The notes beneath the pieces were generated by a model. That model made no database searches. It was given only the letters and a program-made list of their open reading frames with translations, and was not told the origin of the DNA. The translations under genes were made by a program, and so were the position numbers. Shown one piece after another: positions 211 through 11,574 of a stretch of 11,574 nt of DNA. The stretch comes from a bacterium (GTDB lineage Bacteria > ARS69). Numbering within the stretch: position 1 is the stretch's first letter; each line of letters starts with the position of its first letter. The stretch spans positions 1 to 11,574 of the forward strand of contig JALGZO010000187.1 of NCBI GenBank assembly GCA_025774865.1, read 5' to 3'.

Positions 211-1221
211 CTACGCACCGTCCATCATCGACCGGAATGCCCGCAGTGACGTTCGAGCGGTAATGGTGAAGCGGCCCAGGGGATCCGCCGCAAGCGAGTC
301 CGCTCGGGGCGGAGCGTTTCGATAGGGCCAAAGCGTGGCGACTCCCCGGAACCCGAGCGACTGGGCCAGGGAGTCCACCTCGGCGGATCCCGCCCCGAAG
401 GGCCAGGCGAGGAATCGGCTCTCGTGGCCGAGCTCCCGCTCGATGCTTCTTCGGCTGGCCAGCAGATCCGCGCCCAGAGGTGAGAAGGGGGACACTCTGC
501 CCATCCGGTCACGGGACGCCATGAGAACCCGAGGAACGTGGCGACCTCGGGAGCGCACCTTCGTGTGCATCTGGTGCGTGTGACTCTCGACCCGGATCAC
601 GCCCTCACGCTCCAGTTCTCGAAGGGTCTCCCAGTCCGTGATTTCCAGATCGTTCCAACCCCGTTCTCCCACCCGGCCGGTGATCATGAACACCGTGGCA
701 CGGTAGCCGTAGCGCCGGAGCACGGGGACCGCGTAATCCACGAACGAGCGCTCACCGTCGTCGATCGTGATCACCACGCTGCGGGGTGGGATGCTTCCCT
801 GGCCGTCCATCCAGTCGGCGAGCTCTTCGAGGTCGATCGCCTCGTAGCCATTCTCGTGGAGGTACCGCATGTGTTGCTCGAACGTGGGAACGGTCGTGGT
901 CCAGAAATCCTTGTCGGGAATCGTCGGGAGGTTCAAGAACACCGCGCCGAGCACGCGGACGAGTCGGCCCAGCGTGAATCCGGGCCGGAAGTAGTGGTAG
1001 CAAAGCACCGGTACGCCTTCGGAGCGTGCGTTTACGAGGCTCGCGAACCGCACTTGCTCGTCGGGGGCAAAGACGGGCGGCACGGCAAGGTCGCTCTGCG
1101 CTCGAGGGGTGTCGTCCAGGCGATTCCACTCCGCGACTGCACCGACGCCGAGCACCGCCGATACGATGAAGCACACCGCACTCGCGAGGAGGTGATTGGA
1201 GCGCTTCGGGCGGACGATCAT
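211..1221 (-). CDS. pgaB: PgaB-like polysaccharide N-deacetylase (NodB domain only)
   Basis: This 336-aa protein is predicted to remove acetyl groups from periplasmic poly-beta-1,6-N-acetylglucosamine before export. Residues 10-30 form a hydrophobic segment ending GAVA, either a signal peptide (cleavage before E31) or an anchor; no canonical lipobox is seen. VPVLCYHYF (70-78) is the usual entry to polysaccharide deacetylase domains. Motif 1 is TIDDG with D154/D155. Motif 2 is SHTHQMH with H214 and H219; the five-residue spacing is the one I recall for E. coli PgaB rather than the HxxxH of many NodB proteins. Motif 3 is LAWPFG (271-276). E. coli PgaB is about twice as long because it adds a C-terminal glycoside hydrolase domain (GH153); here nothing follows the deacetylase, as in Gram-positive IcaB. 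The start overlaps the stop of the upstream beta-barrel gene by 4 bp (ATGA), so translation is probably coupled. Another polysaccharide substrate is possible, but the neighbours favour PNAG. Confidence 0.88.
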   Translation of the reverse strand: MIVRPKRSNHLLASAVCFIVSAVLGVGAVAEWNRLDDTPRAQSDLAVPPVFAPDEQVRFASLVNARSEGVPVLCYHYFRPGFTLGRLVRVLGAVFLNLPTIPDKDFWTTTVPTFEQHMRYLHENGYEAIDLEELADWMDGQGSIPPRSVVITIDDGERSFVDYAVPVLRRYGYRATVFMITGRVGERGWNDLEITDWETLRELEREGVIRVESHTHQMHTKVRSRGRHVPRVLMASRDRMGRVSPFSPLGADLLASRRSIERELGHESRFLAWPFGAGSAEVDSLAQSLGFRGVATLWPYRNAPPRADSLAADPLGRFTITARTSLRAFRSMMDGA

Positions 1222-2915
1222 GTTCCGGCGAAGAGAGCGAGTCCCACGCCTTCACGCTCGTAGCCGTCGCTCGTGTCGAACCGCGACGTCGACTTGCGCG
1301 CGAACGCGAAGAAGCCGTAGTCGGGCCAGGGGCGCCACCGCACTTCGACCCCGCCGTCGAGAACGCCGAAGCGACCGTCTCCGTCCTCATGTTCCGACGC
1401 GAGGCGGGCGTCCCCGGCGAATCTCCATTCGGTCCCGACGGCCCACGCGGCCCCCGCCCGCACGAAGAGTGCGTCGTAGCGATCCGGGTTGTAGTAGCCG
1501 TGATCGAACGTCTGATCGAAGGTGAACCAGGATACTCCCGCTCCGAATGAGATCGGGCGCCACGGCCAGGGCGTCAGGTCCAGCTCCCCGGAAGCGGCCC
1601 AGCGCGCGTTCCCGTCGGAATAATCGCCGTAGCCGGCTTCTGTCCGGGCGATCAGGCGGTCGTTGATCCGACGATCGAGTCCGAAGGAGAACTGATCGAT
1701 GTAGAGCCGGCGGGCTAGCGCCCGTGGCGTCGTGATGTGAACACGCGCGAGTCCGCCGTCCAGCCGGGTCCAATCGGCCGGCCGCCAGGTCGCCCAGCCG
1801 TCCCAGAGCAGCCGGGTGGACTCGACCTCGTCACCCGGGATCGTCGTTCCGTCGCCGGCGTCGACGTCGCGCTGGCCCGACTCCTGAGTCAGAACCGTGA
1901 GGTCGAGGTTGAGGGCGACCGAGTGTGAAGCGGCCCAGGATCCCCCGCCCGTCGTGCGAACGGCACGGATCTCCCCAGGCCCGGGTTGCTCCGCGCGATC
2001 GAACGCCAGCTCGCCGCGAAGCCGGAATCGCGGAGCCGGCGCCCCCTCCGCCCGGACCCCCCAGGTCGTGATGTCTTCGTCATCGCCGTCGGTCCAGAAC
2101 GAACCGGCCGCCTCCCACACCGCTCGGCGATCGGCCTCCAGCTCGTGGCGTAGCTTCGTCGCTTCCGAGCCGTCGACGCCCTCGAGCATGTGTTGCCCGA
2201 GATCCGGCCGGCCTTGCCAGTACCACGCCTGCGCGAGTCCCGTGCGCGCCTCCGCGTCCGTTCGATCCCGCTCGAGGAGCTCTTCATAGTGTGTTGCCGC
2301 CTGCCGGTGTCGCCCGCGCGCGTTCTCGGCGGCGGCCAGACCGAGGAGCGCCTCGCGGGAGTCCGGCGCGGTCTCGAGCACCCGTGCGTACAAGTGGGCC
2401 GCCTCGGCATGATCCTCCCGCCAGGCCGTGACCCGGGCGAGACCGAGGAGCGCTTCTTCGTCGGCCGGGTCTTCCGCGACGACGCGGGCGTAGATCTCGT
2501 CGGCTGCGAGCAGGTCGTCGGACCAGGCGAGGGCGCGGGCGAGGCCGAGCACGGCGTCGCGATCGTCGGGGTGGCGCTCGAGATGCTTCCGGTACCAGGG
2601 GAGGGCTTCCTCCGGCCGCTCCATCCAGGTGAGCTGATCCGCCACGAGGAGCTCGATCTCGGGCTCCAGCGACGAATCGAGCTCCAACGCGGCGAGGGCC
2701 GCCACCACGGCGTCCGAGTGCCGAGACTCTTCGGCCGCCTGCTCGGCGTCGGCCAGTAGCTCCTCGATGCGCTGGGCCCGGGCCACGTCGGCTGCCGTTT
2801 CAGGAAGGCGGGGAAGGCCGAGCGGCATCGCCGACGCGGAGCCGGGGCCTGCGCACGCCAGGGCCGCGAGGAAGAGAATCGCCCGGAGAGCGGTCAGTCT
2901 CGACGCGTCTTCCAC
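1218..2915 (-). CDS. pgaA: TPR plus outer-membrane beta-barrel export porin (PgaA/YaiO-like)
   Basis: The 565-aa product is predicted to carry polymer through the outer membrane. I start it at GTG 2915, not at an ATG further upstream that would lie deep in the synthase gene. The GTG has a Shine-Dalgarno (AAAGGGGA, 2920-2927) and opens a signal peptide (hydrophobic at 9-21, cleavage likely after SASA at 29). Residues about 44-240 are tetratricopeptide repeats (for example LPWYRKHLERHPDDRDAVLG and IYARVVAEDPADEEALLGLA). From about 265 to the end the sequence alternates polar and aromatic or aliphatic residues with many W, Y and F, as in a beta-barrel. YYNPDRYDALF (474-484) resembles a segment I associate with YaiO/PgaA barrels. 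E. coli PgaA is longer (about 800 aa), so this is a compact version. The role as PgaA rests largely on the neighbouring synthase and deacetylase. It overlaps the synthase stop by 22 bp. Confidence 0.8.
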   Translation of the reverse strand: MEDASRLTALRAILFLAALACAGPGSASAMPLGLPRLPETAADVARAQRIEELLADAEQAAEESRHSDAVVAALAALELDSSLEPEIELLVADQLTWMERPEEALPWYRKHLERHPDDRDAVLGLARALAWSDDLLAADEIYARVVAEDPADEEALLGLARVTAWREDHAEAAHLYARVLETAPDSREALLGLAAAENARGRHRQAATHYEELLERDRTDAEARTGLAQAWYWQGRPDLGQHMLEGVDGSEATKLRHELEADRRAVWEAAGSFWTDGDDEDITTWGVRAEGAPAPRFRLRGELAFDRAEQPGPGEIRAVRTTGGGSWAASHSVALNLDLTVLTQESGQRDVDAGDGTTIPGDEVESTRLLWDGWATWRPADWTRLDGGLARVHITTPRALARRLYIDQFSFGLDRRINDRLIARTEAGYGDYSDGNARWAASGELDLTPWPWRPISFGAGVSWFTFDQTFDHGYYNPDRYDALFVRAGAAWAVGTEWRFAGDARLASEHEDGDGRFGVLDGGVEVRWRPWPDYGFFAFARKSTSRFDTSDGYEREGVGLALFAGT

Positions 2916-4153
2916 TGTGTCCCCTTTCGGGCGGGTTCGCGCAAGAACCCGGCGGGAGTGGAGCGAACCGTGACGACCGCGAGAAACATCCAGTAGATCA
3001 ACGGATAGAACACCGCGATGGGATAGGTGCGGCCGAGGCGGAAGTCGTATCGCCGGTCCAGGAGCACGCCCGTGAAGAGCTGGGCGAGGCACACCGTGGC
3101 CATGGACATTCCCCACCAGTTCGGGATGGGACTCCCCCCGATGGGCGGGAAGCCGAGCGCGTAGGACACGACCCAGAGCGACGTGAGCAGTACGAAGCTG
3201 TATCCCCACACGATCGAGAATGTCGACTCCAGCACGACGGGCCAGAAGCGGCGCGCTCGCCAGTTGAGCAACTGACGCGCGTGCCGCCGCAGCACTTGGG
3301 CGAGCCCCAGCGCCCAGCGGCGACGCTGATTCCAGAGGTCCACCCACCGCTCGGGTACACGCATCCAGACGACCGCACGCGGCTCGTACCGGATGTCCCA
3401 GTGGCGCAGCTGCAGCTTCCAGCTGATGTCGATGTCCTCCGTGGCCATGTCCGGGCTGAAGAGCCCCACGTCCTCGAGAGCGCTCCGGTGGAACGCCCCG
3501 ACCACGCCACTCACCGTGAGGATCCGACCCCAGATCCGCTGGGCCCGCTTCTGGAGCGAGATGATCGAGGTGAACTCGATCGCTTGCAGTTGGGTGAGAA
3601 GGTTCCCGCGGTTGAGCACGCGCGGATTCCCGGTGACCGCGGCCACGCGAGGATCTTCGAAATGCGGAACGATGTGGCGCAGGATGGACGGGTCGGGACG
3701 GGCATCGGCATCGACGATGAGAATGATGTCACCGCGGGCGCAACGGAGACCGTCATTGAGCGCCATCGCCTTGCCTTCATTGATGTTCTTCTCGGCGATC
3801 CGGATTCGTCCGTCGGCGTTGAGGCGATGCAGGATCTCCAGCGTTCCGTCGGTGCTCGCGTCGTCGACGAGCAGCACTTCGTAGGCCGGGTAGTCGATGG
3901 CGAGCAGGGATTCGATCGAACGCTCGACGTGCAGGGCTTCGCAGTAGGCCGGCACGAGGATGGTGACGAACGGTGGGTTCTCGCCGATTGGTGGCGCCTC
4001 CTTGCCCCGATGCTCCCGGCGCACGTGATACATCAGGGAAGTGAGGATCCACATCAGCCCGGTCAGCATCGGGTACCACGCGAAGAAGAGGAGCCACCCC
4101 ATGTAGCCCGGCGTGTGCTGGATCCAATCGAGCAGCGAGACGACGTCCGTCAT
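2894..4153 (-). CDS. pgaC: PgaC-like processive beta-glycosyltransferase (GT2), poly-GlcNAc synthase
   Basis: This 419-aa inner-membrane enzyme is predicted to polymerise UDP-GlcNAc into beta-1,6-linked poly-N-acetylglucosamine and push the chain across the membrane. A first membrane span lies at about 18-41. The cytoplasmic GT2 domain follows: VTILVPAYCE (63-72), the first aspartates in VDDAS (96-100), the DXD-type motif DADA (148-151), TED (238-240, catalytic base region) and QRRRW (276-280). This D, DXD, TED, QxxRW set marks processive synthases such as PgaC, IcaA, cellulose synthase and hyaluronan synthase. Further spans lie at about 306-334, 347-366 and 378-398. The length fits PgaC (about 440 aa). 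It starts 4 bp inside the end of the PgaD-like gene (ATGA overlap). Together with the deacetylase and barrel genes this makes PNAG the most likely product; other GT2 polymers cannot be excluded from sequence alone. Confidence 0.9.
   Translation of the reverse strand: MTDVVSLLDWIQHTPGYMGWLLFFAWYPMLTGLMWILTSLMYHVRREHRGKEAPPIGENPPFVTILVPAYCEALHVERSIESLLAIDYPAYEVLLVDDASTDGTLEILHRLNADGRIRIAEKNINEGKAMALNDGLRCARGDIILIVDADARPDPSILRHIVPHFEDPRVAAVTGNPRVLNRGNLLTQLQAIEFTSIISLQKRAQRIWGRILTVSGVVGAFHRSALEDVGLFSPDMATEDIDISWKLQLRHWDIRYEPRAVVWMRVPERWVDLWNQRRRWALGLAQVLRRHARQLLNWRARRFWPVVLESTFSIVWGYSFVLLTSLWVVSYALGFPPIGGSPIPNWWGMSMATVCLAQLFTGVLLDRRYDFRLGRTYPIAVFYPLIYWMFLAVVTVRSTPAGFLREPARKGTQWKTRRD
2920..2927 (-). 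promoter_or_regulatory. Shine-Dalgarno that sets the GTG start of the pgaA-like gene
   Basis: AAAGGGGA on the minus strand lies 4 nt before GTG at 2915, inside the last codons of the synthase gene (stop at 2894). It supports the GTG start, which gives a clean signal peptide. The longer upstream frame back to 3347 would encode an arginine- and proline-rich stretch antiparallel to nothing known and overlapping the conserved synthase. Confidence 0.65.
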
Positions 4154-4722
4154 GGCGCGCGGACCTCAGCCGCCGGTGGTTCGGCCTCGAGTGATTCGGC
4201 TCGGAAATGCTTTTCGTCCCCCTCGACGTGGATGATCACCCGAGTCGCGTGTCGGAGGTCGGCCCCCGATTGCACTCGGATCCGTCGCCGGTGGAAGTCG
4301 ACGGCGACGGCGACGCGATCCGGGGGGCGTTCGGCCCGACGCCCCTCGAGTTTCCGGGCTAGGCGCCGGTTGTAGTCGACCCACGCCCGCGTGCCGGTCC
4401 ATACGCCGGCGATGAAGAAGACGAGGACCCCGAACGAGATCAAGGCCTCCTGGCCGACCCCGCGAGCGAGTACGACGCGCCAGTATGTGAGATAGGTGAG
4501 CCACAGGACGGCCGACAGGACGAGGTGGCGCACGACGGTGGCCCTGCGAGCGGGCGGGCGCTCGTGCGGCCCGTCCGAGGGACGGTGGATGCCAGGTGGT
4601 GGCCCGTCCTCGTGAGGGCCGGGTCGCAGTCGCGGAAAGGACGGTCTCCAGGTACCCGGCAGAGTTCGCCGGATCCGGGTGGTCAGTCCACCCGGGGAGG
4701 CCTTCTTGATCCAGGTCGCCAT
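4150..4722 (-). CDS. pgaD: PgaD-like two-TM accessory subunit of the poly-GlcNAc synthase
   Basis: A 190-aa protein with two adjacent membrane spans, about residues 66-85 (LVLSAVLWLTYLTYW) and 93-113 (ALISFGVLVFFIAGVW), then an arginine-rich cytoplasmic tail. This hairpin topology and its place directly before pgaC (4-bp overlap) match PgaD, which in E. coli binds PgaC and with it senses cyclic di-GMP. Sequence similarity to PgaD is low to the eye, so the name rests on topology and context. Two oddities stand out: a 65-residue proline- and arginine-rich N-terminal region, and a C-terminal stretch (about 136-175, VAVAVDFHRRRIRV and ATRVIIHVEGDE) that looks like a small beta-rich domain. ATG at 4722 has no good Shine-Dalgarno (only GGGG directly before it). 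GTG at 4533 would give a 127-aa protein, close to the usual PgaD size, so the true start is uncertain. Confidence 0.68.
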   Translation of the reverse strand: MATWIKKASPGGLTTRIRRTLPGTWRPSFPRLRPGPHEDGPPPGIHRPSDGPHERPPARRATVVRHLVLSAVLWLTYLTYWRVVLARGVGQEALISFGVLVFFIAGVWTGTRAWVDYNRRLARKLEGRRAERPPDRVAVAVDFHRRRIRVQSGADLRHATRVIIHVEGDEKHFRAESLEAEPPAAEVRAP

Positions 4723-4895: not shown

Positions 4896-5900
4896 TCACT
4901 CGAACCGAACGAGTCGACGCGTCCGGCTGATCGACCCGGCGGTCAGCCGGTACAGGTAGACGCCCGCCACCGGCAGATGCTTCCCACTCCAGCGCACCTG
5001 GTGAGCCCCAGCGGGCTGGAACTCGTCGACCAGGGTCGCGACCTCCTGGCCGAGGACGTTGAAGACTCTCAGTTCCACGTGAGTTGCCGCCGGCAACTCG
5101 TACCGAAACGTCGTGAAGCCATCGAAGGGATTCGGGTGGTTGTGAAGCCGCAGCGCGGCGGGCGAGTCGACCACCCGGGCGCTCACCGCCGTCTGCAGCC
5201 AATCGTCGTAGAGCCCCTGAAGGAGATCGATGGGGTTCTGATTGCTGCTGGTGTTGTTGACGTTTAAGTCGAGGTAGAGATCATTCGTGGGATCGCCGGG
5301 CCGCGCCACGCGAATGAAGGCCGAGATCGACGGCTTGTCCGGGAGGCAGCGCGTATCGGCCCCCGGTACGTTCGCTCCCTGCAGGGCCGCCATGAGCTTG
5401 TCGGCCAGGGTGCCCGAGGTGGTGAGGAATGCCAGCTCCATTCCGTCGAGGATCTCCTGGCCGAGAAGGATGTTGCCCGCGATCGCGTAGGTGACGCCGA
5501 GCTCGTGGTTCTTGTAGTCGAAGCAATTGATGCCCGTGTACGCCGCGCTCCGGCCGCCTCCGATGAGATCCACCACTCCGTACTGGCGGATCGTCGGGTT
5601 GCCGCCGGAATCGTGAACGACGAGCGAATCGATGATCTGCTGGGGCGAATGTCCCTGGTTCATCAAGAGCCGGGCGTAGTTCTGATTCTGCGCGGTCCAG
5701 TAGGACTGGGTATGGATGGCTCCGAGCCCCGGATGGACATCACTGATGATGATCGAGCCGGCGATGCAGGAGGCACCCGCACTCCCGACTTCTTGAGTAT
5801 TCGGATCCACGGCGACGATCGAAAAGGTCGCGAGAGCGGGGAAGGCTCCCAGGATCGTCGCCGCGCAGAGAAGGGCCAACCCGAGTCGGAGACGTTTCAT
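4896..5900 (-). CDS. Secreted DUF1028 (Ntn-hydrolase-like) protein with C-terminal FlgD-Ig/sorting domain
   Basis: A 334-aa protein with a signal peptide (1-24, ending PALA), a DUF1028 domain (about 25-240) and a C-terminal immunoglobulin-like domain (about 250-334). ATG 5900 has AAGGAG six nt upstream. TFSIVAVDPNTQEVGSAGASC (from 25) is the DUF1028 signature opening; the family is related to Ntn hydrolases, but I know of no firmly assigned reaction. Predicted cleavage after A24 puts T25 at the mature N-terminus, where Ntn enzymes carry their nucleophile. GADTRC (180-185) stands where many cytoplasmic members have a GGDxRG-type motif. The tail begins LHNHPNPFDGFTTFRYELP (251-269) and continues with LRVFNVLGQEVATL, typical of FlgD-Ig or 'Por' C-terminal domains that guide secretion or surface attachment in FCB-group bacteria. 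It follows the BNR protein gene by 46 bp and is probably co-transcribed with it. Substrate unknown. Confidence 0.87.
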   Translation of the reverse strand: MKRLRLGLALLCAATILGAFPALATFSIVAVDPNTQEVGSAGASCIAGSIIISDVHPGLGAIHTQSYWTAQNQNYARLLMNQGHSPQQIIDSLVVHDSGGNPTIRQYGVVDLIGGGRSAAYTGINCFDYKNHELGVTYAIAGNILLGQEILDGMELAFLTTSGTLADKLMAALQGANVPGADTRCLPDKPSISAFIRVARPGDPTNDLYLDLNVNNTSSNQNPIDLLQGLYDDWLQTAVSARVVDSPAALRLHNHPNPFDGFTTFRYELPAATHVELRVFNVLGQEVATLVDEFQPAGAHQVRWSGKHLPVAGVYLYRLTAGSISRTRRLVRFE

Positions 5901-5946: not shown

Positions 5947-8481
5947 CTACCTCACGACTGTCATCTTCACCGTCTTCTTGTCCGCACCCGCTGTGAGCAC
6001 GACAAAGTAGACGCCACTTCGCACGTCCGCCGCGATCCAGGGCGCCGCGCGGACCACTCCGTCCCCGTGGGGCAGCTGAACCACGCGGTCGATGAGCCGC
6101 CCGTGGACGTCGTAGATATCGAGGGTCACTTCGCCCTCGTGTTTGGCCGCGAACCGGAGCCACGTCCGATCGCGTACCGGATTCGGCGAGGGCGGGTCGA
6201 GCATGAGGTTCAGCGCCGCGCCCGCGACAGACACATCCGCCCCGGTGGAGACCCCCGGGAGGTCCACTTCCCAGGCCCCGCGACCGTACGTCCCGGCCAC
6301 GAGCTTGCGCGTGGATCGATGAATCTCCAGGTCCGTCACGACGACGTTCGGGAGGCCCGTTTCGAACGGCACCCAGTTCGCCCCGCCGTTCGTGCTCGAC
6401 CAGACCCCGAAGTCCGTTCCGAGGAACCAGTCATCCGGGTTCGCCGGGTCCGCGATCATCGTGTTGACGGGAATCGAGGGGAGATCTCCCGTCACGTCCG
6501 TCCAGCTCGCACCGAAATCGGTCGTGACCGCGAGGTGGGCGACGTTGTTGAACGAACCGAACGTGACGAACGCCGTGCCGAGGTCGGAGGGGTGAGCCTG
6601 GATCTTGGTCTCCGATCCGACGGGGAAGCCGTAGTTGGCCGCGGGCGTCCAGGAATCACCACCGTCCGTCGAGACGAAGGGGCGCGTGGGGTTCACCGAC
6701 CAGACCACATCGCCGTCGGTCGGGCTGATCGAGATCCAGATCGCGGTGTGGGGTGCGATGTTCGACCAGAGGAAGCCCCCGCTCGTGGTGCGGAAGATCC
6801 CGTTGCTCGTGGAGGTGAACAGCCGATTCCCCTGGTTTTGATCCTCGTCGACGGCGGTCACCCAGTCGCCCTGCCCGTCGATCCCGTTCATGATCGGGAA
6901 CCAGCTGGCTCCGCTGTTGAGGCTCTTTACGTGGTTACCGAACTGCCACTCAGCGTAGACCGTCCCGTTGCCGGGATTGATATTGCACACCATACCATCG
7001 GCGATGAGGGTCGAGATGAACCAGTCGTTCGGCCCGGCGTCGCGACCGGGGAAACCGTTGTCCTGAGATCCACCGGTCATGAAGGTCGGATTGCTCTGCG
7101 ACACGCAGATGTCGTAGAACTGGAACGTCGGAAGACCTTCGCGACGGGAGTTCCACGACTGTCCGTCGTCGGTCGACTTCCATACGCCCCCGTCGGTGCC
7201 CACCCACACATCGTTCGTAGACCCCGGCTCGTACGCGATGGCGTGGTGATCCCAGTGGACGTCGGTCTGGTTGCCGAGCGCGGTGACGCTGTGAGTCTCG
7301 GTGAGCGTGACGCCACCGTCGCTCGACTCGTACATGCGGACACCGCCGGCGATGACCCGGTCCCGGTCGTCGGGATCGACGACGATCGTGAGGTTGTACC
7401 AGCCCTGGCTGTTCACCATGTTCGTGGAGGTGTTTCGGGCCTCCCAGGTCGCGCCGTCATCCGTGCTCCGGTAGACGCCAAGCGTCTGGTGGTTGTCCGA
7501 GCGCGTGTAGTTGGCGTAGATCACGCTGGGATCCGCCGGAGTCACGGCGATCTTGGTCTTGCCGATGAGAGTGGGCGTGGGCTGTCCGGTTCCGACCGCC
7601 GACCACGTCAGACCGTCATCGGTCGACACCTTGACGTTGTTGCCGCCAGCGCCGGAGCGGCCGCGACACGTGTACATTCGAGCGGGCTCGCCGGGCTTGC
7701 ATTTCACGTCGTAGTAGTGCCCACCGGACATGACTCTCGTCCAGTTGTCGCCCTGATCGATCGAGCGCCAGAGCCCGTCCGTGGCGCCCGCGAGGATCGT
7801 CCCCGTGAGCGGATTCACCTCCATGTGATGGAAGCCGTGACCGCTCGGCAGGTTGAAGGTGAGGCTCGTCGGCTGCCAGGTGGCACCGCTGTCGGTCGAC
7901 TTGAAAATCCCGACCCCGGACTGCCCTCCGGCTCCTTCGCCGGTCCCGACCAGAACCACGCTCGGATTCTGATCGAGAACGGCGACGGCACCGATGAGAA
8001 GAGACGGCAGCTGATCGGTCGCCGTCGTGTACGTGTCGCCGCCGTCGCTCGACTTCCAGAGGCCGCCGCTCGCGGCGCCGATGTAAACGACGTTCGGATT
8101 GGTCGGATGGAACTCGATCGTGGTGATGCGTCCGGAGAGGTTCACGGGGCCGAGCTGGAACCAGCCGGCTCGAGGCGATACGCCGAGCTGCCTCTCGCGC
8201 TTGATCCGCCACGCGTGGAGCACCTCCTGCGGCTCGGGGAGCCGTCCCCCCAGGCGGCGCTGGATGTTCCATTTGATCCGGTTGAACGGCTTCCATCCGC
8301 TTCCCGGTTGGTCGCGGAGCTCCGGATGGGCAGCGTAGAATCGCTCCATCGATTGGATCCAATCGGGGAGCGGTGAATCAGGGTGTGGCTCCGCGGCCGT
8401 CGCGGTCTCTCCGGCGAAGGCGGTCAATGAGATCGAGGCGACGAGCAGAGAGGTTCTTCGGAGAAAGGAAGCTCGAGACAT
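5947..8481 (-). CDS. Secreted Asp-box (BNR/VPS10-like) beta-propeller protein with C-terminal sorting domain
   Basis: An 844-aa exported protein. ATG 8481 has AGGAGG five nt upstream. Residues 1-29 are a signal peptide ending TATA or ATAA. Residues about 38-100 include GSGWKPFNRIKW, a type of N-terminal block I have seen before propellers of this class. From about 144 to 703 there are twelve Asp-box-like motifs (S-x-D-x-G-x-T/S-W), for example KSTDSGATW (194-202), RSTDDGATW (338-346), KSTDDGQSW (435-443) and VSTDGGDSW (603-611). They repeat every 40-80 residues, as in two stacked sortilin/Vps10 or sialidase-type propellers. Some boxes are degenerate (KSLNSGASW, RTTSGGFLW). I see no sialidase or GH74 catalytic set that I could name with confidence, so it may bind rather than cut. 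The tail (about 758-844), opening DPPSPNPVRD, is a FlgD-Ig/'Por'-type domain like that of the next gene. Likely surface or extracellular; binding partner unknown. Confidence 0.88.
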   Translation of the reverse strand: MSRASFLRRTSLLVASISLTAFAGETATAAEPHPDSPLPDWIQSMERFYAAHPELRDQPGSGWKPFNRIKWNIQRRLGGRLPEPQEVLHAWRIKRERQLGVSPRAGWFQLGPVNLSGRITTIEFHPTNPNVVYIGAASGGLWKSSDGGDTYTTATDQLPSLLIGAVAVLDQNPSVVLVGTGEGAGGQSGVGIFKSTDSGATWQPTSLTFNLPSGHGFHHMEVNPLTGTILAGATDGLWRSIDQGDNWTRVMSGGHYYDVKCKPGEPARMYTCRGRSGAGGNNVKVSTDDGLTWSAVGTGQPTPTLIGKTKIAVTPADPSVIYANYTRSDNHQTLGVYRSTDDGATWEARNTSTNMVNSQGWYNLTIVVDPDDRDRVIAGGVRMYESSDGGVTLTETHSVTALGNQTDVHWDHHAIAYEPGSTNDVWVGTDGGVWKSTDDGQSWNSRREGLPTFQFYDICVSQSNPTFMTGGSQDNGFPGRDAGPNDWFISTLIADGMVCNINPGNGTVYAEWQFGNHVKSLNSGASWFPIMNGIDGQGDWVTAVDEDQNQGNRLFTSTSNGIFRTTSGGFLWSNIAPHTAIWISISPTDGDVVWSVNPTRPFVSTDGGDSWTPAANYGFPVGSETKIQAHPSDLGTAFVTFGSFNNVAHLAVTTDFGASWTDVTGDLPSIPVNTMIADPANPDDWFLGTDFGVWSSTNGGANWVPFETGLPNVVVTDLEIHRSTRKLVAGTYGRGAWEVDLPGVSTGADVSVAGAALNLMLDPPSPNPVRDRTWLRFAAKHEGEVTLDIYDVHGRLIDRVVQLPHGDGVVRAAPWIAADVRSGVYFVVLTAGADKKTVKMTVVR

Positions 8482-8853: not shown

Positions 8854-9792
8854 TCAATCGTTCATTCCTTTGAGAGCATCGATCAGCTGCAACATTCCAG
8901 GAGCGAGCATGACGACGAGCAGGGCCGGGAAGATGCAGAACACCAGGGGGAACAGCATCTTGACCGGGGTCTTCCTCGCCGCTTCTTCCGCCCTCTGACG
9001 TCGTCGCGTCCTCAGGGAAGCTGCGTGAATCCGCAATGCGCGAGCGATGCTCGTACCGAACCGGTCGCTTTGAACGAGGACCGCGACGAGTCCTCGAACG
9101 TCCTCGTTGCCGGTGCGCCGCGCCAGATTTCGCAAGGCTTGAGTTCTCTGCACTCCCGTACTCATCTCCAGATTGACGAGCCGGAGTTCCTCGCTCATGG
9201 CGCGCGAATGCAGTGTGCTCTCGCGGCTCACGCTGAGGAGCGCCGCGTTCAACCCCTGCCCTGCTTCGACGCAGATGACCATGAGATCGAGAGCATCGGG
9301 GAGGGCCAATGTGATCTCCATGCGACGCTGATTCTGCTTGATCCGCAACCACATCGACGGCGCCATGAATCCGACGAGGGCGACTACCCCGGAGAGCACC
9401 GTGACTTCCATCTGGAGCAGCCCCGTGTAGTTGCCACCCACGTAGAGCATCACGAGGCCGAGCGCGGCGGCCAGGAAGACACGCAGGCCCACGAAGACCT
9501 TGGTGACATCATCATGGCGGAATCCGGCGCCGGCCAGCTCCCAGCGTAGCAAGGGCGACTGGCTCTGCCAGGGCAGAACCCACGAGAACACGGTGAAGGG
9601 GCGCAACCAAACGGGGAGGGGACGCGCGAACAGGCCGGCGGCGGACTCGACCACCTCCCCCTGGGGGGTACCGATCTTGCGAAGTCGGTCCACGACGCGG
9701 TTGTCACCGCCCCGGAGCCGCATGACGCCGAGCACGGCACTGATGACTGCGACGCCAAGCATCGCGGGAAGCAGATACTGAACCATCGTCAT
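8854..9792 (-). CDS. tadC: TadC-like inner-membrane platform protein of the Tad/Flp pilus
   Basis: A 312-aa membrane protein that with TadB forms the inner-membrane platform on which the CpaF/TadA ATPase works to assemble Flp pili. Membrane spans lie at about 5-23, 103-120, 130-150 and 280-302. The T2SSF (GspF-type) domain covers about 164-295 and opens LPDALDLMVICVEAGQGLNAAL (164-185), a hallmark of TadC; RNLARRTGNEDVRGLVAVL and SDRFGTSIARALRIHA follow as expected. The length is usual for TadC. ATG 9792 overlaps the tadB stop by 4 bp (ATGA); ATG at 9786 is an equally close alternative start. It is the last recognisable tad gene here. Confidence 0.92.
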   Translation of the reverse strand: MTMVQYLLPAMLGVAVISAVLGVMRLRGGDNRVVDRLRKIGTPQGEVVESAAGLFARPLPVWLRPFTVFSWVLPWQSQSPLLRWELAGAGFRHDDVTKVFVGLRVFLAAALGLVMLYVGGNYTGLLQMEVTVLSGVVALVGFMAPSMWLRIKQNQRRMEITLALPDALDLMVICVEAGQGLNAALLSVSRESTLHSRAMSEELRLVNLEMSTGVQRTQALRNLARRTGNEDVRGLVAVLVQSDRFGTSIARALRIHAASLRTRRRQRAEEAARKTPVKMLFPLVFCIFPALLVVMLAPGMLQLIDALKGMND

Positions 9793-10754
9793 ACCTTGAT
9801 CTCCGCGATTCGACGCATGATGAAGTAGCCGACAACTTGCAGTACGGCGGCGGTCATGAGCATGTAGCGGCCCATCGGCTCCTCTATCATCGTCTTCATG
9901 TAGTCCGGCGCCGTGCCGAGGATGAAGAGCCCGAGCGCGATGGGCAGAACCGAAAGGATCGTTCCCGAGAGGCGCGCCTGGGCCGTCATCGCACGGACGT
10001 CACCGAGAATGCGCAGCCGCTCCCGGATGACCTCGGCGGTCTGCTCGAGAATCTCCGTCAGGTTGCCACCCGTGTCGCGCTGGAGCAGGACGGCGATCAC
10101 GAAGAGGTGGAGCTCCTTGCTGTCGACCCGTTGGGCCAGATTGCGAAGCGCTTGTTTCATGTCGACGCCGAGGCGGGTCTCTTCGAACAGAATCGTGAAC
10201 TCGCCGGCCACCGGATCGGAGCACTCCTGTGCGACGACCTGGATGGCGCTCGAGAGCGCCATCCCCGCCCGCAGGGCGCCGGTGAGAATGTCCAACGCGT
10301 CCGGGAACAGCCGCTCGAAGTGCTTGACCCTCTTGTTCCTCCGACGGACGGCCAGGATCCAGGGAGCGGTGCCCAGAAGGACGCCCACCGGGAAGACGTA
10401 GTAAGGAGCTCCAAAGAACATGAGGCCGGCCACGCCCGCCACGGCGAGCGCCAGCGACATGAACAGGAACGCATCCGTGCGGGTCTTGCCGCCTCCCTGG
10501 AGGAGCAGGAGATTCACGCGTCGGGCGAACGCGAACCGGCTCAGCAGCTCTTCCATGAACGGACTCGAGCTGAGCCTTCGATCGTCGAGAATCCCGGGAG
10601 CGGCCGGTACCCTCTCTCGATCCGGCGTCAGGGCCTTGAGTCGGGCGCGAAGCCGCCGCTTCTCCGAGTCCCCGGCGATCCAGTAGACGCCGGCGAACGC
10701 GACGATGGTCACTACGAACACACCGACCGAAAGGAGGATCAGTTCCCGTTCCAC
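9789..10754 (-). CDS. tadB: TadB-like inner-membrane platform protein of the Tad/Flp pilus
   Basis: A 321-aa membrane protein, partner of TadC in the Tad pilus platform. One N-terminal span lies at about 5-27, a hairpin at about 95-135, and two C-terminal spans at about 262-282 and 297-313. The T2SSF domain (about 148-275) opens LFPDALDILTGALRAGMALS, then QECSDPVAGEF and LGVDMKQALRNLAQRVDSKE, all typical of TadB. The start is GTG at 10754, 9 bp after the ATPase stop; the upstream sequence has only a weak AGGA, so translation is probably coupled to cpaF. Full length for the family. Confidence 0.92.
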   Translation of the reverse strand: MERELILLSVGVFVVTIVAFAGVYWIAGDSEKRRLRARLKALTPDRERVPAAPGILDDRRLSSSPFMEELLSRFAFARRVNLLLLQGGGKTRTDAFLFMSLALAVAGVAGLMFFGAPYYVFPVGVLLGTAPWILAVRRRNKRVKHFERLFPDALDILTGALRAGMALSSAIQVVAQECSDPVAGEFTILFEETRLGVDMKQALRNLAQRVDSKELHLFVIAVLLQRDTGGNLTEILEQTAEVIRERLRILGDVRAMTAQARLSGTILSVLPIALGLFILGTAPDYMKTMIEEPMGRYMLMTAAVLQVVGYFIMRRIAEIKV

Positions 10755-10763
10755 GGAGGCGTC

Positions 10764-11574
10764 CTATCCTTCCCGCAGTTCGAAGAAGAGATCTGCGTCG
10801 ATGTCCAGCCCGCTGAGGGCGAGCTTCTCGGCGAACTTGGGCCGGATGCCCGTCGCCTCGTAGTGACCCTGCACGCGCCCGTTTGCATCAATTCCGGTCT
10901 TCGAGAATCGGAAGATCTCCTGCATCGCGATCACATCCTGCTCCTTGCCCACGATCTCACTCACACTCACGAGCCGGCGCGTACCGTCGGACATTCGGGT
11001 CACGTGAACGATGACGTCGAGACCGGCGCTGATTTGCTCTCGCATCGCGGCCGTCGGGAGGTTCACGCCACTCAGAAGCATCAGGGTCTCCAACCGGTGC
11101 AATGCATCCCGCGGGCTGTTGGCGTGTACCGTCGTGATCGACCCGTCGTGTCCCGTGTTCATGGCCTGGAGCATGTCGAGAACCTCGTCGCCGCGAACCT
11201 CCCCGACGACGATCCGGTCCGGCCTCATGCGGAGCGCGTTTCGCACGAGCTCCCGCTGCGTCACTCGTCCCTTGCCCTCCACGTTCGGGGGCCGCGTCTC
11301 CAGACGCACGACGTGAGGCTGCAGGAGCTTGAGCTCGGCGGCATCCTCGATCGTCACGATCCGCTCGGACACCGGAATGGACGCCGAGAGCGCGTTGAGC
11401 AGCGTCGTCTTGCCGGAACCGGTGCCGCCGGAGATGAGCATGTTCAGGCGGGCGTGCACCGCCGCATTGAGAACGGCAACCATCCCCGGGCTGATGGAGT
11501 TGTTCTGAATGAGAGCGTCCATGGTGAGCGTGCGAACTCCGAACCGGCGAATGGAGAGAATCGGGCCGTCCAGG
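10764..11574 (-). CDS. tadA: CpaF/TadA secretion ATPase, C-terminal part (runs off right edge)
   Basis: The hexameric ATPase that powers Tad/Flp pilus assembly. The reading frame stays open to the window end: before ATG 11522 it reads [17 protein letters not shown] in frame, which is family sequence, so that ATG is internal and the true start is outside. About 269 residues are visible. Walker A GGTGSGKT is at 11406-11429. IEDAAEL (the Asp box) follows, then [16 protein letters not shown] (Walker B) and [12 protein letters not shown] (His box). All key residues of the PulE/VirB11-type ATPases are present, so the enzyme looks active. The C-terminal tail ([14 protein letters not shown]...) is typical of CpaF. 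The stop lies 9 bp before tadB. Confidence 0.94.

Follow-up and report, generated by a model that had tools for sequence, protein, structure and literature searches.

Four overlapping genes on the minus strand of the DNA analyzed here probably form an operon for a PNAG-type exopolysaccharide, which, judging from the families of the encoded proteins, would be made by C together with D, partially deacetylated by B and exported by A. The best reading of this D-C-A-B operon is that it represents a third, diderm PNAG-type lineage, in which deacetylation at the inner membrane is combined with a PgaA-type pore and the system is probably gated by c-di-GMP. The stretch examined (the window; 11,574 nucleotides) is a whole contig of a fragmented 4.7-Mb MAG with 8.3% contamination.

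Gene layout and the four proteins

The order in the window is D (4150..4722, 190 amino acids, a PgaD-like inner-membrane subunit with two TM helices), C (2894..4153, 419 amino acids, a PgaC/IcaA-like GT2 polymerase), A (1218..2915, 565 amino acids, a PgaA-like exporter with a signal peptide, a TPR region and a 16-strand barrel) and B (211..1221, 336 amino acids, a NodB/CE4 deacetylase of the PgaB/IcaB kind without a hydrolase domain), all on the minus strand. The earlier note had described this order with overlaps of 4, 22 and 4 bp, and the open frames at these coordinates bear it out, as did a check of E. coli K-12 for the order A-B-C-D with which it was compared (pgaA-B-C-D). Both 4-bp overlaps are ATGA, and A starts with GTG immediately behind AAAGGGG, which are the usual marks of translational coupling. 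All four frames are open and the active sites are retained. Directly upstream of D, on the same strand, is a gene for a DUF1028 protein to which a sorting tail resembling those of type IX secretion is fused (4896-5900). Another gene on this strand (5947-8481) encodes a secreted protein of 844 amino acids with Sortilin/Vps10-BNR repeats, whose C-terminal tail is likewise type IX secretion-like. Further upstream on the minus strand (8854-11573) are Tad-type pilus/secretion genes for a TadA/CpaF-like T2SSE ATPase and two TadB/TadC-like T2SSF membrane proteins.

The best family of C by far is PgaC/IcaA (TIGR03937; 386 bits, E-value 1.6e-115), with the next family at 112 bits. The cellulose synthase CelA scored 67 bits, its cut-off being 699, and the grouping with cellulose synthases that would have refuted the earlier note was not observed. 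C has 35% identity to E. coli PgaC and retains the motifs of processive GT2 enzymes (DD, DxD, TEDID and QRRRW) as well as the equivalent of R222 of E. coli PgaC, a residue that is the same in 50 of the 51 sequences having a residue at that site. The score of C is under the curated equivalog cut-off of TIGR03937 (422.3 bits), as are those of seven relatives (372-400 bits) and of an IcaA-like protein from L. brevis (369 bits), while a staphylococcal IcaA (S. equorum, 582 bits) and a canonical PgaC (529 bits) pass it. The phylogeny of C places canonical PgaC with IcaA in one group (100/99) that excludes every D-C-type sequence; the outgroup, a GT2 from the same genome, has a very long branch that makes the rooting unsafe, and only this split is used. 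Going by its sequence, C would work like a PNAG synthase while being formally outside the PgaC/IcaA equivalog.

For D, the family model searches gave no match above the cut-off when the window protein was used alone. TIGR03940 was matched by 6 of 31 D proteins of relatives (best E-value, 1.2e-4) and PF13994 by 5, the window D matching neither. When the genomes were searched with TIGR03940, canonical genomes matched, the genome of the window did not and the remainder was noise; the D profile gave nothing meaningful when run against PDB sequences. In profile-profile comparison, the alignment between the D family and canonical PgaD extends along 109 columns (Prob 96.8, E-value 2.5e-10), including both TM helices and the tail, with a score of 61 versus 44 for the best of 60 locally shuffled controls. 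Furthermore, a W114-x3-N118 motif at the end of the second TM helix (4369..4383, minus strand) is invariant in the D family and aligns with W71 and N75 of E. coli PgaD. The relationship of the two-TM protein to PgaD thus holds at the level of profile homology, at which D is best described as a remote PgaD homolog.

The structure model of A (mean pLDDT, 93.3) contains TPR helices at residues 41-262 (2130..2795, minus strand), which are also supported by Pfam TPR matches, followed by an outer-membrane barrel of exactly 16 strands at residues 266-564 (1224..2120, minus strand). The barrel matches that of PgaA (4y25) with a Z of 26.4 and 2.4 A over 273 of 290 residues (Foldseek, VIA-align). PelB and BcsC match the fold at a similar Z, sharing with A the combination of TPR and 16-strand barrel, but the barrel sequence profile of A matches PgaA and the partner genes of A are of the PNAG type. 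The profile alignment with canonical PgaA barrels spans 247 columns (Prob 97.9, E-value 6.5e-13) with a score of 93, compared with about 18 or less for shuffled controls and 19 for a reversed one, and the window A by itself scores 23.9 bits with the Pfam PgaA_barrel model, slightly below the cut-off of 27. The membership of the barrel in the PgaA family, which the earlier note had suggested, is therefore supported by both sequence profile and fold. Its description of A as a short porin does not hold, since the barrel has the normal 16 strands and about 300 residues, compared with 295 in E. coli PgaA. In total, A has 565 amino acids versus 807 in E. coli PgaA, and according to the model the barrel is full-sized and the shortness is confined to the TPR part.

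All 27 B proteins matched the PgaB and IcaB models, and the best match of B both by sequence and by fold was IcaB of Ammonifex (4wcj). The catalytic and metal-binding Asp-Asp pair (757..762, minus strand) is invariant, as are both histidines of the metal-binding H-x4-H motif (SHTHQMH; 565..582, minus strand). The protein ends after the NodB domain, in agreement with the earlier description of a deacetylase without a hydrolase domain, and the GHL13 hydrolase domain was absent from the assembly of the window's genome and from ten related assemblies in a search that found its canonical positive control. The N terminus of B forms a hydrophobic helix (residues 2-31 of the model; 1117..1206, minus strand) that is predicted to be a membrane anchor; a lipobox scan found no lipobox in the window B, while several B proteins of Krumholzibacteriota have one. 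An insert of exactly 28 residues with a hydrophobic core separates YHYF from the next strand in each of the 27 B proteins; in the window (904..987, minus strand) it reads RPGFTLGRLVRVLGAVFLNLPTIPDKDF. It is located at the site of the membrane loop of IcaB, termed Region 1 in PMC7112194. The insert with which it aligns in staphylococcal and lactobacillar IcaB is shorter, and E. coli PgaB has none there. By analogy with IcaB, the insert may act as a membrane loop and B would deacetylate at the inner membrane. The phylogeny of B contains three separate sets, namely canonical PgaB, IcaB and the proteins of the D-C-A-B group. A lone B-like gene was also observed on a Priestia plasmid, where no operon was seen.

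Distribution of the D-C-A-B order

The C gene was found in 4 of 5 genomes sampled from the small phylum of the window and, at an E-value of 1e-60 or lower, in 37 of 80 genomes of a second phylum (that of genome G005), which holds the loci named Krumholzibacteriota. Complete D-C-A-B operons were found at 30 loci in 29 genomes from the window's phylum and Krumholzibacteriota, the window included, and some are on megabase-size contigs. The other loci in the group consist of D-C, D-C-A or C-A-B, with contig ends truncating many of them, and no other gene order was present among the loci collected for the group; no B followed A in the stretch retrieved for L075, L077 and L087. Canonical loci of other phyla (L020-L022) have the order A-B-C(-D), with D after C. 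The synteny survey that the earlier note had proposed thus recovered these four families in this order at 30 loci, beyond what is expected by chance. The unusual order to which that note pointed is real, but it is not a local rearrangement and is rather a conserved trait of the whole clade.

Parts of this arrangement were also observed elsewhere. Three actinobacterial loci, from Rubrobacter and two others (L009, 7402-9245; L013, 3152-4956; L014, 7543-9206), contain only a D-C pair with no exporter or deacetylase gene adjoining, and in Rubrobacter the pair is followed by a gene for a GspE/PilB-like ATPase. An acidobacterial locus (L016, 7553-10861) contains D-C-A with no B adjoining; in a survey of 200 genomes of that acidobacterial class, the seed genome matched and the 199 others did not. 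These actinobacterial and acidobacterial loci show that the position of D before C is common to the wider clade. Among the Krumholzibacteriota loci whose neighboring genes were inspected, a divergent alanyl-tRNA-synthetase-like gene, recognized by eye, is often located just upstream of D (L012, L019, L079 and L087), and it marks a stable chromosomal site in these four loci.

The MAG of the window contains a second complete D-C-A-B operon (L027, 7968-12338, on contig C513 of genome G000) with different flanks. Its identity to the window operon is 77% for C, 59% for B, 46% for D and 43% for A. The tetranucleotide usage of contig C513 correlates with that of the window at r 0.975, compared with 0.93-0.95 for relatives. 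Judged by this composition, we lean toward the second copy being a paralog rather than contamination by a related genus.

Proposed mechanism and alternative readings

As to the polymer product, the anchoring of B and the regulation by c-di-GMP, we infer the following from the protein families. C with D, probably as a c-di-GMP-dependent complex, would use UDP-GlcNAc to build a GlcNAc chain at the inner membrane and pass it outwards. B, held at the inner membrane by its N-terminal helix and IcaB-like hydrophobic loop, would partly deacetylate the emerging chain without cutting it. The resulting positively charged polymer might then be guided along the short TPR region of A and out through the 16-strand barrel, as suggested by PgaA. 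Control by c-di-GMP is plausible because C retains the equivalent of R222, which has been reported for c-di-GMP binding by PgaC (PMC10333796), because D retains the W-x3-N motif, and because the genome encodes GGDEF proteins, which were found in all 10 genomes tested. In E. coli PgaA, the part of the TPR region close to the porin binds the deacetylase domain and stimulates it, whereas modulation of the hydrolase falls to the N-terminal part (PMC9384988). From this division of labor, a short TPR region would be predicted to go together with the absence of the hydrolase, which is the combination present here.

The earlier note had called the operon a divergent PNAG machine. All four homologies on which that description was based were upheld, while PNAG itself is a product that we infer, because C is under the equivalog cut-off and outside the clade of PgaC and IcaA. 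It could be that the same architecture serves a related but chemically different amino-sugar polymer, with C using another linkage or sugar and B deacetylating its product. We regard this as unlikely: the position of the C clade, which is under the cut-off throughout, and a fold of A common to the exporters of Pel and cellulose are in its favor, but B is one of the PgaB/IcaB deacetylases, whose substrate is PNAG, C retains all the PgaC motifs tested and the barrel profile of A matches PgaA. It is highly improbable that the operon belongs to a cellulose- or Pel-type exporter that recruited a GT2 and a deacetylase by chance, as might be supposed from BcsC and PelB being among the top fold matches of A, since this identity is largely refuted by the family scores of C and the match of D to the PgaD profile, and no BcsB- or Pel-like gene was found in the operon. 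A decayed or chimeric pga locus produced by assembly, which the fragmentation and contamination of the MAG and the two operon copies in the bin might suggest, is scarcely credible and is refuted by the survey of loci, with open frames, intact active sites and the same order in 29 genomes, including megabase contigs.

Relation to the pga and ica systems

E. coli pgaABCD (hmsHFRS in Yersinia) is similar to this operon in having a GT2 polymerase, a PgaD partner, a NodB deacetylase and a porin composed of a TPR region and a 16-strand barrel. It differs in gene order, and B here lacks the GHL13 domain and has the hydrophobic insert, the TPR region is short and C is in a separate clade. Staphylococcal icaADBC likewise has a single-domain deacetylase carrying an insert where the membrane loop lies, and among solved structures IcaB is the one closest to B. 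However, the outer-membrane exporter A and the PgaD-like D are present here, the gene order differs, C is again in a separate clade and the genes of the window include none for an IcaC-like acyltransferase. The icaB-like pgaB clades of Gram-negative bacteria described by Bundalovic-Torma et al. 2020 (PMC7112194) also have a deacetylase without a hydrolase domain that is predicted to be at the inner membrane. Those clades are characterized by GT fusions, and neither pgaA nor pgaD was detectable in them, whereas here both A and D are present and no fusion was seen. The combination of an IcaB-type deacetylase with a PgaA-type exporter and a PgaD-like partner in the order D-C-A-B was not found in what was read of that paper. 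Furthermore, a search of the open-access literature gave no report joining Krumholzibacteri with PNAG, or with an exopolysaccharide and a deacetylase.

Tentatively, and with slightly less than an even chance in our estimation, D-C-A-B may be a third deep lineage of PNAG-type machinery, distinct from both pga and ica, whose IcaB-like, membrane-bound deacetylase operates together with a PgaA-type porin in bacteria with two membranes, on a polymer that may differ from classical PNAG. If this is true, D-C-A-B would supply the combination that has been missing between the designs of ica and pga, and export through PgaA would need no PgaB hydrolase. A PNAG-like matrix system would also be extended to Krumholzibacteriota and a small neighboring phylum, for neither of which was such a report found. 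It has been proposed (PMC7112194) that pga arose from an ica-like ancestor whose deacetylase lost its inner-membrane localization and gained a hydrolase domain. By pairing an ica-type deacetylase with a pga-type exporter, this clade makes that scenario and the need for the hydrolase in export directly testable.
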